The notes beneath the pieces are model-generated. The model was not told where the DNA came from. It ran no database searches and saw nothing but the letters and a program-made list of their open reading frames with translations. A stretch of DNA of 64,000 nt from Brevibacterium sp. ZH18 (lineage in GTDB: Bacteria > Actinomycetota > Actinomycetes > Actinomycetales > Brevibacteriaceae): the NCBI RefSeq assembly GCF_022748595.1, contig NZ_JALDSX010000009.1:1-64000 (forward strand), read 5' to 3'. Both the position numbers and the translations under genes were made by a program. Shown here piece by piece: positions 1 through 6,905 of this stretch (position 1 is its first letter; every line of letters begins with the position of its first letter).

Positions 1-18
1 AGCGCCCGAAGGGTTGCT
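1..18 (+). repeat. Partial copy (right arm) of a 26-8-26 hairpin repeat
   Basis: The first 18 bases match the distal 18 bases of the right arm of the two complete hairpins at 5638-5697 and 6846-6905, with one A-to-G difference from the copy at 6880-6905. The left arm lies outside the window. It is the third member of the same intergenic repeat family. Confidence 0.75.
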
Positions 19-73
19 CGCTGTTTGGCCGCGCCTGGACGCAGGGCTCCGCGCGGAAATTTTCCTCACCGGG

Positions 74-2049: not shown

Positions 2050-3861
2050 ATGACACGTATGCGCGCAGTAGAAGCGGTGGTGCTCATCCTCGAAAAGGAA
2101 GGCGCCACCCAGACATTCGGGCTGCCGGGAGCGGCCATCAACCCGCTGTACTCGGCGATGAGGTCGCACGGCGGAATCAACCACACACTGGCCCGCCACG
2201 TCGAAGGTGCCTCGCACATGGCCGACGGCTACACGCGAGCCGCGGCCGGCAACATCGGCGTGTGCCTGGGTACTTCGGGCCCGGCCGGCACCGACATGAT
2301 CACCGGGCTCTACGCGGCCGCCGCGGACTCACAACCGATCCTGTGCATCACCGGCCAGGCCCCGGTCGCCGTGCTCGACAAAGAGGACTTCCAGGCCGTC
2401 GACATCGCCTCGATCGCCAAGCCCGTGACCAAGATGGCCAAGACCGTGCTCGAGGCCGGCCAGGTGCCAGGCGTCTTCCAGTCGGCGTTCCAGCTCATGC
2501 GCTCGGGCCGTCCCGGACCGGTCCTCATCGACCTGCCGATCGACGTGCAGCAGACCGAGATCGAGTTCGACATCGAAACCTACGAACCGCTCGTGCCCGC
2601 GAAGCCTGCGGCCACCTCGGCGCAGGCGGAGAAGATCCTCGATCTCATCGCGGAGGCGAAGCACCCGCTCATCATCGCCGGCGGCGGAATCCTCAACGCC
2701 GATGCTGCTGATCGGCTCGTCGAATTCGCCGAACTGACCTCGATCCCGGTCTCGCCGACCCTGATGGGCTGGGGCACGATCCCCGACGATCACCCGCTGC
2801 AGGCGGGCATGGTCGGCATCCAGACGCACGTGCGCTACGGCAATGCCTCGTTCCTCGAATCAGACCTGGTCATCGGGCTCGGCAACCGCTGGGCCAACCG
2901 CCACACCGGGGACCTCTCGGTGTATCGGGCAGGACGGAAGTTCGTCCACATCGACATCGAGCCGACGCAGATCGGGCGCGTGTTCTCACCCGACTACGGT
3001 GTCGTCTCCGATGCTGGCGCCGCCCTCGACGCGCTGCTGAGCGCGGCTCGCAGTCGGAGCGCAGGTGCTGGTGTTGCGGGCGGGAGCCTGCCTGACTTCA
3101 CCGACTGGGCGAACGAGTGCACGAAGCGCAAGGGCTCCGAACACCGCAAGACCAACTACACGGATGTGCCGATCAAGCCGCAGCGGGTCTATCAGGAGAT
3201 GAACTCGGCTTTCGGTCAGGACGTCACCTATGTGTCGACGATCGGGCTGAGCCAGATCGCCGGTGCGCAGATGCTTCACGTCTACCGCCCTCGCCACTGG
3301 ATCAACGCCGGCCAGGCGGGACCGCTGGGCTGGACCGGACCGGCAGCGCTGGGTGTGGCCAAGGGCAAGCCGGGTGAGACCGTCGTTGCGCTCTCCGGCG
3401 ACTACGACTTCCAGTTCATGATCGAAGAGCTGGCCGTCGGTGCCCAGCACAAGATCCCGTATCTCCACGTCGTCGTCAACAACTCCTACCTGGGTCTGAT
3501 TCGTCAGTCGCAGCGCGGATTCGACATGGATTACCAAGTGTCGCTGGCCTTCGACAACATCAATTCCTCAGGTGCCGCTGCCGGTTACGGCGTCGACCAC
3601 GTGGCCGTGGCTCTGGGCTTGGGCTGCAAGGCGCTGCGCGTCGAAGATCCGGAGCTCATCGGTGAGGGGCTGCGCGTGGCGCAGGAGCTCATGAGCGAGC
3701 ACCAGGTTCCGGTCGTCGTCGAGGTCATCCTCGAGCGGGTCACGAACATCTCGATGGGCGCCGCGCTCGACAGCATCAACGAGTTCGAGGTTCTCGCCCA
3801 GACTCCGGCAGACGCGCCCACCGCGCTGACGCCGATGGACGAGCTCGTCGCCGCGAAGTGA
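2050..3861 (+). CDS. gcl: Glyoxylate carboligase (tartronate-semialdehyde synthase)
   Basis: A 603-residue ThDP enzyme that condenses two glyoxylates to tartronate semialdehyde and CO2. A decisive signature is Val51 in the segment [14 protein letters not shown]: Gcl is known for having valine where nearly all other ThDP enzymes carry the catalytic glutamate, and the E. coli enzyme also has it at position 51. The ThDP/Mg motif GDYDFQF lies in the C-terminal third, with the central FAD-type domain before it. SD GAAGGAAG precedes the ATG. It is the third gene of the glycerate-pathway operon. Its stop codon lies inside a 24-bp tandem duplication and a strong terminator follows. Confidence 0.96.
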
Positions 3862-3904
3862 CCCGGTGAGCGAGTCAGAAAAGTGACCCGGTGAGCGAGT
3901 CAGA
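3856..3904 (+). repeat. Perfect 24-bp tandem duplication across the gcl stop codon
   Basis: A 24-base segment beginning AAGTGACCCGG occurs at 3856-3879 and again, identical, at 3881-3904, one base apart. The first copy contains the last codon and TGA of gcl. The second copy reproduces that end downstream, so a recent duplication of the gene tail is likely and the protein is unaffected. Confidence 0.85.
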
Positions 3905-3953
3905 GAGGAGCCCGGTCGCCGGAGGGTGGTTACCTCCGGTGACCGGGCTCCTC
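3905..3953 (+). terminator. Stem-loop terminator after gcl
   Basis: Arms 3905-3925 and 3933-3953 are 21-bp complementary with one G-T wobble and a 7-base loop. There is only a weak T-rich tail (GTCGTTGG). It ends the hyi-glxR-gcl unit. The remaining sequence to 4166 holds a candidate operator and presumably the allB promoter; I see nothing else there. Confidence 0.75.
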
Positions 3954-4166: not shown

Positions 4167-5585
4167 ATGAATGCCAATCAGGCCTCAGAGCCCACCTCCA
4201 CCGATGCATCCGCCCCATCACCTCGAGATTCCGCCTCGGCGAATGAATTCGACCTCATCATCCGCGCTGATCGGGCGATCCTGCCCGAAGGTGAGAGTGC
4301 AGTGCAGGTCGGCGTGAGCGGCGGGACGATCGTCGAAGTTGCCACCGGGGGAGCGGAACTGAGCGGGACCGCCTCGGCGGATGCGAAGGTCATCGACGTC
4401 GACGCGTCCCAGGTCCTTCTGCCGGGACTCGTCGATTCCCACGTGCACGTCAACGATCCCGGTCGCAGCGAATGGGAGGGCTTCGCCAGCGCCACCCGCG
4501 CGGCCGCGGCCGGCGGCGTGACGGCGATCGTCGACATGCCGCTCAACTCCCTGCCGCCGACGGTCAACGTCGAATCCCTTGACATCAAACGCGAGGTCGC
4601 TGCCTCGAAGGCCTTCATCGACGTCGGCTTCTGGGGCGGTGCGATCCCCGGCAACACCGGCGACCTCAAGCCCCTCTATGACGCCGGAGTCTACGGATTC
4701 AAGTGCTTCCTTGAGGACTCAGGTGTCGACGAATTCCCGCCGCTCGAGCCCGAGGAACTGCGCGCGGACCTGGCCGAGCTTGCGAAGTACGACGGTCTGC
4801 TCATCGTTCACGCCGAGGACCACTCGGTCATGGCGGGGGCGCCGAAGAACTCGGGCCGCAAGTTCAGCGACTTCCTCGCCTCCCGTCCGCGCGAGGCCGA
4901 GAACGTCGCGATCGCCCGAGTCATCGACGCCGCCCGGGAGACAGGTGCCCGCGCCCACATCCTCCATCTGTCTTCGGCTGACGCGCTGCCCCAGATCGCT
5001 GCTGCCAAGGCTGAGGGCATCAAGCTCACGGTCGAGACATGCCCGCACTACCTCGTGTTCACCGCCGAGGAGATCCCGGATGGGGCGACCACGCACAAGT
5101 GCTGCCCGCCCATCCGTGAGGAGTCCAACCGTGAGGCGCTGTGGCAGGGGCTCATCGACGGGACCATCGACTGCATCGTCTCCGACCACTCGCCGTCGAC
5201 GGCTGAGCTGAAGCTCCTCGACACCGGTGACTTCGGTGCAGCATGGGGCGGAATCTCCTCGCTGCAGCTGGGCCTTCCCCTCGTGTGGACCGAGGCTGCG
5301 AAGCGCGGAATCGCCCTCGCCGATGTGGTCTCCTGGATGTCATCGGCGCCGGCGGCCGTGGCTCGCGTGGAGAACAAGGGCTCCATCGCCGTCGGCAACG
5401 ACGCGGACTTCGCTCTCTTCGCCCCCGATGCGGAGTGGACCGTCCACGCGACAGAGCTCTATCACCGTAACCAGATCAGCGCCTACGATGCACGCACGGT
5501 CCGCGGCGAGGTCAAGCAGACCATCCTCCGCGGCGCTCCCGTGGACTTCTCCGAGCCGCAGGGCCACCTCCTCCGCGCCCGCTGA
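4167..5585 (+). CDS. allB: Allantoinase
   Basis: A 472-residue cyclic amidohydrolase that opens (S)-allantoin to allantoate. Binuclear metal ligands are all present: His92 and His94 (SHVHVNDPG), the carboxylated Lys179 (GFKCFLEDSG), His215 (VHAEDH), His267 (HILHLSS) and Asp340 (SDHSPST). The SHVHVNDPG and SDHSPST motifs favour allantoinase over dihydroorotase or hydantoinase. The ATG at 4167 has GAAGGAG about 8 bases upstream; the reading frame stays open 69 bases further 5' but without a ribosome site. The first 27 residues are a low-complexity Ser/Ala/Thr extension. It acts between UraD upstream in the pathway and allantoate amidohydrolase, which is not in the window. Confidence 0.94.
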   Translation: MNANQASEPTSTDASAPSPRDSASANEFDLIIRADRAILPEGESAVQVGVSGGTIVEVATGGAELSGTASADAKVIDVDASQVLLPGLVDSHVHVNDPGRSEWEGFASATRAAAAGGVTAIVDMPLNSLPPTVNVESLDIKREVAASKAFIDVGFWGGAIPGNTGDLKPLYDAGVYGFKCFLEDSGVDEFPPLEPEELRADLAELAKYDGLLIVHAEDHSVMAGAPKNSGRKFSDFLASRPREAENVAIARVIDAARETGARAHILHLSSADALPQIAAAKAEGIKLTVETCPHYLVFTAEEIPDGATTHKCCPPIREESNREALWQGLIDGTIDCIVSDHSPSTAELKLLDTGDFGAAWGGISSLQLGLPLVWTEAAKRGIALADVVSWMSSAPAAVARVENKGSIAVGNDADFALFAPDAEWTVHATELYHRNQISAYDARTVRGEVKQTILRGAPVDFSEPQGHLLRAR

Positions 5586-5637
5586 CAGGCGCCCGCACCT
5601 CAGCCTCCCCGCCGTCGCTCATCGCATCCGACGCCAC

Positions 5638-5697
5638 AGCAACCTTTCGGGCGTCCAGCAACCATTAGACGGGTTGCTCGACGCCCGAAAGGTTGCT
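5638..5697 (+). repeat. 26-8-26 inverted-repeat element, copy 2
   Basis: Left arm 5638-5663 and right arm 5672-5697 are complementary at 25 of 26 positions around an 8-base loop. Inside each arm the word GCAACC/GGTTGC occurs twice around a CTTTCGGGCG core, so the arm is itself internally repetitive. It lies after allB and before the DUF559-like gene. It could act as a terminator, but the same element recurs at 6846-6905 and at the window start. Confidence 0.9.
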
Positions 5698-5772
5698 CGC
5701 TCGTTTTGCTGCCAACGTTCGGGTAGCCATACGGCCGCAGGGTTTCCGGGTGGGTGGTTTCTATACACAGGG

Positions 5773-5793
5773 TTACCCACAGGGTTATCCACA
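5773..5793 (+). other. Two DnaA-box-like 9-mers in tandem
   Basis: TTACCCACA (5773-5781) and TTATCCACA (5785-5793) sit 12 bp apart in the same orientation. The second is a perfect E. coli-type DnaA box; actinobacterial boxes usually read TTGTCCACA. They lie 52 bp upstream of the start of the gene at 5845, in a short AT-richer stretch. This is not a chromosomal origin (no dnaA/dnaN or box array). Confidence 0.5.
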
Positions 5794-5844
5794 GTTTTAA
5801 GTTTCTTGTTGCAGTTTGTTGTGGAATGGTGCAGTTTAGTATCC

Positions 5845-6846
5845 ATGTATACGCAATTCACCGCGGCACGTCTGCTGCGTTTAGGCTTCTCTCGTGCCGA
5901 GGTGAAACGTGCGCAGGGCTGCTGTCTGCAACGCGTAGCGCGAGGACGGTATGTCACCGAACGCGTGTGCTCCAACCCTGCCCACAACCGGTTGTGGGAG
6001 TCAGTCAAGACCGGCTCCAGCGACGAATTCCCTCAGTTCGGCGACATCCGTGACCGGGTAGAGCGGCTCAAGGTGCTCATCCGCGCGAGAGCAGAGCATC
6101 TTCAAGCAGCGCAATTGAATCAGTCGTCACCCCGCGGGGGCGAGCTGTTCAGCCATCTGTCCGCTGCGCTCATCCATGAGCTGCCGGTCAGTGGCTTCAA
6201 CGCGCAGAAGGTGGAGGTCGTGCGGCCGGCAGTGAGTCGCACCTACGCCCACTTGCGGGTCCGACGTCGATCGATCCCCGAAGGTCAGCACACCCGCACC
6301 GGCATCTATCCGGTGACGTCATTGGAGCGGACTCTCATTGACGTCGCTCGTGACTACTCGCTCGAGATGGCGGTGCCGATGTTCGACCACGCCCTGCGCA
6401 GTCGTTCGACGACTCTTGATGCTGTCAGGTCCAGTGCTCTGGAGTGTGCTGAGATCAACGGCGCCCGAAAGGTGGAGACCGCTATCGAACTCGCTGACGA
6501 GCGGCGTGAGTCTGCGGCCGAATCAATCTGCGGAGTTCGATTCTTCGAGTTCGGCATCAGCGGTTTCGTCCCTCAGGTGAACATATTCGATAGCGACATG
6601 AACTGGCTGGGCCGAGTCGACTCCTGCCACGAGGCGGCAAAAGTCATTGTCGAGGTCGACGGATTGGGCAAGTACAGTCTCGGCTCAGGTAATCCGAACC
6701 GCGAGATCGAGAAGGAGAAGCTTAGGGAATCTGCACTTAGCGCGGCCGGGTATCTGGTGATCAGGCTAACCTGGCGCCAATTGTTCAGGTCGGAGCTGTT
6801 CACTTTCATTCTGAGTGCGACCGCAGAGCGACTTGCGTCGAAGTGA
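5845..6846 (+). CDS. AbiEi-like N-terminus plus DUF559/Vsr-like nuclease-fold protein
   Basis: A 333-residue protein of a type common in actinobacteria. The first ~45 residues (FTAARLLRLGFSRAEVKRA, then RGRYV at 34-38) resemble the winged-helix domain of AbiEi-family antitoxins. Residues ~225-312 resemble DUF559, a Vsr-like PD-(D/E)XK fold, with GRVD (256-259), VEVDG (269-273), Lys276, a basic helix and a C-terminal LTWRQL. Function is unknown; DNA binding or nicking is inferred from fold only. The reading frame is open back into allB, but ATG 5845 (or GTG 5821) restores normal family length. No clear SD is seen. No cognate AbiEii-type toxin is adjacent. Base composition is less GC-rich than its neighbours, and near-identical hairpins bracket the gene, its TGA sharing a base with the 3' one. 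This suggests an acquired unit. Confidence 0.7.
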   Translation: MYTQFTAARLLRLGFSRAEVKRAQGCCLQRVARGRYVTERVCSNPAHNRLWESVKTGSSDEFPQFGDIRDRVERLKVLIRARAEHLQAAQLNQSSPRGGELFSHLSAALIHELPVSGFNAQKVEVVRPAVSRTYAHLRVRRRSIPEGQHTRTGIYPVTSLERTLIDVARDYSLEMAVPMFDHALRSRSTTLDAVRSSALECAEINGARKVETAIELADERRESAAESICGVRFFEFGISGFVPQVNIFDSDMNWLGRVDSCHEAAKVIVEVDGLGKYSLGSGNPNREIEKEKLRESALSAAGYLVIRLTWRQLFRSELFTFILSATAERLASK

Positions 6847-6905
6847 GCAACCCTTCGGGCGTTGGGCAACCGTTGCTTGGGTTGCTCAGCGCCCGAAAGG
6901 TTGCT
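6846..6905 (+). repeat. 26-8-26 inverted-repeat element, copy 3
   Basis: Left arm 6846-6871 and right arm 6880-6905 pair at 23 of 26 positions around an 8-base loop, the same architecture as the copy at 5638-5697. It sits between the convergent genes ending at 6846 and 6945, so it may also terminate both. Its first base is the last base of the upstream stop codon. Confidence 0.9.

Follow-up and report, generated by a model that had tools for sequence, protein, structure and literature searches.

The window, by which we mean the whole stretch of DNA analysed, corresponded to the initial 64 kb of C126, a contig in a draft genome of 3.8 Mb. It held a gene for a nuclease-like protein of 333 aa (5845..6846, + strand), located between allB and bcp and flanked by two palindromic hairpins. 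The upstream hairpin (5638..5697, no strand assigned) had arms of 26 nt and a loop of 8 nt, with 25 of 26 positions paired. The downstream hairpin (6846..6905, likewise without strand) had the same arm and loop lengths, with 23 of 26 positions paired (script score 17). The upstream hairpin ended 147 nt before the ATG start codon at 5845, and the last base of the TGA stop codon (6844–6846) was the first base of the downstream hairpin, a shared base already noted in the initial annotation. That annotation had also described the two 26-8-26 hairpins as near-identical; their geometry and their position around the gene held up, but at 82% identity "near-identical" was generous. Both belonged to hairpin class A, in which the arm carries an AGCAACC-type repeat with a spacing of 19 nt (class representative L054). 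An intrinsic terminator is a GC-rich hairpin that stands behind a gene and has a T run after it; reading from the sequence, a TTTT stretch lay seven nt past the upstream hairpin, and no T run followed the downstream hairpin. The third, half copy reported earlier was present at 1..20 (no strand assigned) and is incomplete because the contig starts there.

We take the neighbouring genes to be hyi, glxR, gcl, allB, bcp, glxK, uraD, uraH, uox and aceE. Nine of these labels were supported by Pfam at the family level (all but uraH, which was left out). The direct neighbours of the nuclease-like gene in the window were metabolic genes, encoding by Pfam an amidohydrolase (allB) and, on the opposite strand, an AhpC/TSA peroxiredoxin (bcp). 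The half hairpin at 1..20 lay 5′ of hyi, a site where genomes G021, G028 and G052 had a class-A hairpin as well. A 25-nt direct tandem repeat (3856–3905, 96% identity) began at the extreme end of gcl.

The initial annotation had predicted a wHTH combined with a Vsr-like nuclease, and structural modelling agreed with this. An AlphaFold2 model based on 58 aligned proteins had a mean pLDDT of 86.9 and a pTM of 0.83, with one poor stretch at residues 58–66. Model residues 1–218 matched AbiEi (6y8q_A; Z 10.3, 167 aligned residues, rmsd 7.0), and residues 221–331 matched the catalytic domain of the homing endonuclease I-Bth0305I (3r3p, Z 12.3), NGO0050 (3hrl, Z 12.3) and Vsr (1cw0, Z 10.3). Residues 73–217 aligned, too, with the nucleotidyltransferase toxin MenT1 (Z 8.1; all comparisons by VIA-align). 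PADLOC AbiEi models matched the middle of the protein (residues 73–209, E 7.2e-10). Going by the model, the window protein appears to have the AbiEi wHTH plus CTD fold followed by a Vsr-like PD-(D/E)XK fold with conserved acidic residues. E226, D259, E270, G273, K276 and R294 were invariant among 84 aligned homologues, and these candidate active-site residues are as would be expected for an active nuclease.

Other searches with the window protein itself were less productive: the Pfam DUF559 match (17.7 bits) was below the gathering cut-off (20.6), NCBIfam gave no match, a profile search of PDB sequences yielded weak matches (best E 0.064), and Foldseek returned nothing at E 0.001 or better, the top match being AbiEi at 3e-3. 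Among the 58 aligned proteins, which include the window protein although it had no Pfam match at 0.001, 27 matched DUF559, 17 MTES_1575 and 10 AbiEi_4 at E 0.001 or better; the families found at this threshold were solely DUF559, MTES_1575, AbiEi_4, AbiEi_3_N and RAP. No Y1/HUH transposase domain was matched by Pfam in these 58 proteins, and the C-terminal domain of the model fitted Vsr-like folds. No gene for an AbiEii nucleotidyltransferase toxin partner lay beside the gene within the window.

Homologues of the protein were detected in 54 of 57 genomes of the genus, with up to 14 per genome, and in 92 of 248 genomes of the order (E 1e-10 or better). Both allB and bcp flanked 28 of the 30 best homologues; in the other two, the contig ended on the allB side (L061) or extra DNA placed bcp beyond the 1.5-kb flank (L074). 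Hairpins were found on both sides of 26 of the 30 allB-locus homologues at the script threshold. Several of the first 20 paralogue loci had other hairpin pairs, and some had none.

We scored the pairing of each gene with its hairpins by comparing the 400-nt upstream with the 300-nt downstream flank on both strands, the downstream flanks of loci in other groups serving as controls. The test covered 107 of 110 loci (L117, L152 and L155 had no tblastn hit and were omitted): 30 allB-locus genes, 40 in-genus paralogues (fetched as 20 + 20) and, from 40 distant loci fetched (38 from other genera), 37 other loci, of which 35 were from other genera and two were distant ones from the same genus. The window gene scored 51 against a 99th percentile of 23.5, so its hairpin pair is not due to chance. 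The own-flank score exceeded the 99th percentile of the controls in 86 of the 107 loci (29/30 allB-locus genes, 27/40 paralogues, 30/37 other loci), the genomes being akin to one another and the counts, consequently, not independent. The remaining 21 loci had no matching pair by this test. Mean own-pair scores were 56.7 (allB-locus), 35.7 (paralogues) and 49.7 (distant), compared with permuted means of 34.3, 15.4 and 17.6, and the permuted means reached the own mean 0 times in 10000.

A second set, drawn from named genomes and sharing some genomes and species with the first, gave a similar picture. With L218, L219, L239 and L240 left out for their short flanks, 74 of 78 genes were used; 49 of them scored above 24.6, whereas only 8 did so among 295 control genes taken at these loci, and scores of at least 40 were obtained for 34 of the 74 genes and one of the 295 controls. 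The set's own 99th percentile was exceeded in 36 of 48 Brevibacterium loci and 15 of 26 other loci. Pairing extended to other genera, in which the proteins were about 30% identical. Chance pairing was ruled out by the mismatched-flank, permutation and control-gene tests, and the REP/RAYT-like layout remarked on in the initial annotation recurred across the family. Judged from sequence, such genes tend to lie between two copies of a gene-specific palindrome, and a coupling between gene and hairpin repeat is very probable.

Upstream of the window gene, at 5785..5793 (+ strand), 60 nt 5′ of the start codon, lay the DnaA-box-like motif TTATCCACA. Of the 30 allB-locus homologues, 27 had the same motif 59–60 nt ahead of the start codon; it was also present in the upstream flanks of 11 of 40 paralogues (mostly at 60–62 nt) and of four among the 37 distant loci. 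Downstream flanks lacked it at all 107 loci, including the 30 allB-locus homologues. Expression of the gene may be linked to replication.

The hairpins of the allB locus fell into four classes by sequence: A (five genomes; GCAACC), B (19 genomes; CTACCTGACGGCGGCCCAGCAACC), C (five genomes; CTAAACCTCCC-TGACGTCACTAA) and D (one genome, G007). Among paralogues of one genus, hairpin sequences differed from gene to gene. The repeats were single palindromes of about 45–78 nt. Their internal structure was assessed with a hairpin of 46–92 nt found in 74 of the 107 loci, giving 33 classes, of which 32 had a sufficiently long arm. A direct repeat inside the arm at exactly 19 nt (5 of 6 or better) was present in 16 of these 32 classes, with 1.0 expected from shuffles, and any other offset was seen in at most three. 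An earlier clustering, based on 10-mers in common, lumped dissimilar classes together (11 clusters, four with an internal repeat at p ≤ 0.05) and was replaced. Among 40 class-B copies, of which 34 were distinct, 92.9% of cells were paired and seven pairs had changed on both sides; slid pairings gave 54% or less and at most three, respectively, and the shuffle control 12/500. The two hairpins of a class-B gene were more alike than permuted pairs (0/20000), and this likeness was weaker in class A (345 of 20000 permutations) and class C (1334 of 20000), with five loci each.

A genome-wide count of the hairpin, proposed in the initial annotation, turned up dispersed copies whose abundance tracked the gene for class B; these counts were made for classes A and B. 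In the source genome, a permissive pattern search and BLAST with a typed consensus detected about a dozen more class-A copies, full or partial. Among 24 loci around such matches, seven had a full class-A hairpin at the script threshold, and in none of the 24 did tblastn detect a homologue of the gene up to about 1.5 kb away. Inside the window, loose 14-mer matches were not in excess (29, with 32 expected). Class-A copies occurred in all five class-A genomes and in 11 of the 52 genomes without a class-A gene at the allB locus. The class-B arm pattern had 7–77 forward matches in each of the 19 genomes with a class-B-bracketed allB-locus gene, many of them with 55–77; the remaining 38 genomes had at most three per strand apart from G014 (55), G017 (10) and G049 (4), and a reversed-pattern control gave 0–2. 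By these counts, class-B copy number is linked to gene class. The 11 genomes with class-A copies but no class-A gene at this locus, and G014 with its 55 class-B copies and no gene at the allB locus, count against a tight coupling of gene and copies.

The setting of the dispersed copies was examined in G003, in 20 regions picked for class-B matches and with a heuristic gene call. For the 23 copies found there, the median distance to the nearest assigned stop codon was 15 nt; nine lay between convergent genes, nine in tandem settings, one between divergent genes and four inside called ORFs. In locus L039 (G000, contig C43), an integrase-core transposase gene was inserted within a class-A hairpin at about 4433–6069, and a second hairpin copy lay in a tandem duplication just 5′ of the insertion. 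In G053, 5′ of hyi (L169), a half hairpin with the changed stem described below adjoined DNA that looked foreign by eye, possibly another insertion into a hairpin. Contigs C126 and C84 each started within a class-A half hairpin, and in other draft genomes, several class-B matches lay <50 nt from a contig start; the hairpins therefore seem to break assemblies.

G053 differed from the other class-B genomes in the sequence of its stems. Both of its gene-flanking hairpins had GGCGCCCC, with a matching change in the opposite arm, where the other class-B genomes mostly had GGCGGCCC. The GGCGCCCC-type variant was counted 18 + 18 times on the two strands of G053; three other genomes had no more than one per strand, and 53 had none. 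The usual 13-mer was found 4 + 3 times in G053 versus 66 + 61 times in G003. From the rarity of the G053 form we infer that it is derived. We compared 12 G053 hairpins (10 dispersed, two gene-flanking) with G003, whose partner regions were found partly by expected position. All 12 coincided in position with a G003 hairpin, the flanks being 78–96% identical and two G003 hairpins lying nearby in one case, and all 12 carried the new stem on both arms, their G003 counterparts having the usual stem. Because selection of the G053 regions had required the variant in one arm or both, what the comparison adds independently is the shared position and the change in the second arm; 6 of 14 regions had no hairpin fitting the two-arm pattern and were excluded. 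The loops of the G053 hairpins varied between copies, and a simple recent sweep from a single source therefore fits poorly. Parallel change under selection for protein binding also fits.

The G053 protein departed from otherwise invariant class-B columns at positions 18, 19, 89, 95 and 293, the first two falling in a modelled helix (residues 17–23). This co-occurrence of residue and stem changes is one case and is suggestive. In whole-segment comparisons, the wHTH region was not more divergent between classes than the rest of the protein. G042 is a possible second stem shift for which the evidence is partial: the variant GGCGGCTCAG was counted 23 + 17 times and the usual form 4 + 3 times, with the variant reaching up to 14 per strand elsewhere and its exact form present in the downstream flanking hairpin of G042 but not in the upstream one.

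The initial annotation had considered a mobile unit. A freely mobile one was rejected: the 30 best homologues share one allB–bcp gap, so the unit is not freely jumping. No homologue was detected in a plasmid collection (E 1e-15) or a phage collection (E 1e-8). Orthologous sites without the gene, which that annotation had proposed to look for, were encountered in 7 of 12 genomes checked, where allB adjoined bcp; the other five were uninformative, G054, G055 and G023 having no allB match (E 1e-100) and G001 and G034 having a match without adjoining bcp. The gene-free gap held one plain hairpin in G032, G006, G012, G035 and G043, two unlike hairpins in G050 and a solo class-B hairpin in the class-B-rich G014. 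Some of these hairpins (L261, L264, L265, L266) were terminator-like, with a stem core that by eye resembled class B in G032 and G012 and class A in G035 and G043; these could be remnants of solo hairpins that have decayed, or else the source of the stems. The converse situation, a gene conserved in place in relatives that lack the hairpins, which the initial annotation had named as a refutation, was not found: relatives with the gene at its place also had hairpins, of other sequences.

Turnover at the locus was seen most clearly between G016 and G017, one of which carried a class-B and the other a class-A unit in the allB–bcp gap. Identity per 100-nt bin was 81–100% on both sides (edges aside) and 38–68% over the unit, falling just 3′ of the allB stop codon and recovering near the end of bcp. 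Going by this alignment, the change appears as a replacement of the unit between close genomes. At another site, 3′ of aceE (window about 13874; L162–L181), different hairpin families, or none, were present depending on the genome.

The organisation resembles that of REP/REPIN sequences and their RAYT (TnpA_REP) transposases, in which the gene lies beside its own palindromic repeat family and the repeats are dispersed between genes (PMC3116915). The same source describes distinct repeat groups for each RAYT within one genome and proposes co-evolution of protein and repeat. Flanking by an own palindromic repeat family, as found in the 86 loci, makes the present genes RAYT-like in organisation, not by homology: the protein has a predicted AbiEi-like wHTH and a Vsr-like PD-(D/E)XK fold instead of a Y1/HUH domain, and the repeats, unlike REPs/REPINs, are single palindromes, half of whose classes have the 19-nt-spaced internal direct repeat. 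AbiEi, which represses its operon by binding a pair of 23-bp inverted repeats with 3 bp between them (PMC3985639), is alike in fold over model residues 1–218, and its 23-3-23 palindrome is near the 26-8-26 hairpin in geometry. Unlike AbiEi of the type IV toxin–antitoxin system AbiE, the present protein has an extra nuclease domain, its palindromes lie on both sides and are also dispersed, and no toxin gene adjoins it in the window. With the Vsr-like nucleases, I-Bth0305I, DUF559 and MTES_1575, it shares the C-terminal fold, the invariant acidic residues and lysine, and the Pfam matches given above, but its gene lies, by position, between two genes instead of in an intron or intein and is bracketed by palindromes, and its nuclease domain is fused to an AbiEi-like part. 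Homing endonucleases cut the allele without the element, which repair then copies in; what was observed for the present genes is replacement of the unit and sites free of the gene. RAYT-associated palindromes bear a GTAG or CGTC tetranucleotide at their foot. The CGTC-tagged REPs are likewise palindromes located mostly behind genes and are said to lack a dedicated transposase (Di Nocera 2013, PMC3733652); a term search of the main text of that paper found no Actinobacteria, Corynebacterium, Mycobacterium or Arthrobacter.

The best reading of these observations is that the gene and its own palindromic repeat family form one genetic system, apparently organised like RAYT and REP/REPIN around an unrelated protein. 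We put the probability that the protein recognises its hairpins and somehow maintains or spreads them at roughly 0.55. Alternatively, the protein could be an AbiEi-type autorepressor, with the two palindromes as its operators, the dispersed copies as decoys or regulated sites and the nuclease acting elsewhere, for example in defence. The AbiEi fold match, the repression by AbiEi through 23-bp inverted repeats upstream of its operon (PMC3985639) and the likeness of the 19-nt-spaced repeats to protein sites speak for such a role, as does the single case of G053, whose protein has residues 18 and 19 (helix 17–23) unique within class B together with a changed stem. However, operators would account neither for the copy downstream, at the stop codon, nor for the 55–77 copies per genome in many class-B genomes, and one of the 23 sampled copies lay between divergent genes compared with nine between convergent ones (heuristic gene call), although the nine in tandem may have promoter roles. 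We consider this account unlikely.

That the hairpins are ordinary terminators of the genus, coincidentally bracketing the gene, was raised as an objection in the initial annotation, and part of it stands: tens of class-B copies do lie at unrelated 3′ ends, just behind stop codons, with 9 of 23 between convergent genes, and the gene-free allB–bcp hairpins of G032/G012 and G035/G043 share by eye the look of the B and A stem cores. The number of copies follows gene class, however, and coincidence would not give matching flanks to 49 of 74 of these genes versus 8 of 295 controls, different pairs to paralogues within one genus, or pairing that persists where protein identity has dropped to about 30%, in other genera; the probability left to it is small. 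Slightly less improbable is that a RAYT or IS transposase encoded elsewhere in the genome moves the hairpins, with the nuclease gene as a passenger. Other enzymes do act on the hairpins, as the transposase gene interrupting one in L039 shows, and in other systems REPs are linked to Y1 transposases (PMC3116915), but a passenger would not be expected to be bracketed in many genera by a repeat whose sequence is locus-specific. We give the least weight of all to a defence or selfish nuclease whose palindromes mark self DNA or tolerate cutting, the repeats not being copied. The mid-protein match to PADLOC AbiEi models would suit it, and the unit was replaced between close genomes, as defence alleles might be; it does not predict the in-place change of dispersed hairpins, and the direct neighbours in the window are metabolic.

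If the protein does maintain or spread its hairpins, the following route can be envisaged. Given the AbiEi fold and the adjacent 26-8-26 palindrome, binding of the palindrome by the AbiEi-like part would be the simplest reading, and the likeness of the second domain to homing endonucleases and Vsr suggests that it would nick or cut the DNA at this palindrome or close to it. A further copy would then serve as the template for repair, rewriting or spreading the repeat, which could produce an in-place, two-armed change as in G053, and copies kept 3′ of genes may also serve as terminators. Such cutting and conversion in particular is a tentative proposal, with somewhat less than even odds, and selection for matching sites without cutting would also yield the G053 pattern. 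A touch more speculative is a hairpin-directed drive, in which the protein would recognise its private palindrome, the homing-type nuclease would break unmatched or outdated copies and repair would rewrite tens of hairpins, so that gene, specificity and repeats co-evolve.

Among the papers listed by our searches of the open-access literature (preprints aside), none joined DUF559/AbiEi proteins with flanking palindromes in its title or abstract opening. Our analysis suggests that the gene–hairpin system is an overlooked counterpart of the partnership between REP repeats and their transposase, run by a different enzyme. It would be a second, independently evolved solution of the REP/RAYT type, with a Vsr/homing-type nuclease replacing the HUH transposase. 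It would give a large set of actinobacterial DUF559/AbiEi-like proteins a testable function and account for a class of dispersed actinobacterial hairpins. G053 would offer a natural case of repeats changing in place, making the concerted change of bacterial palindromes testable. Should the drive be real, actinobacterial genomes would carry many of these gene–repeat pairs side by side and draw part of their terminators from them.
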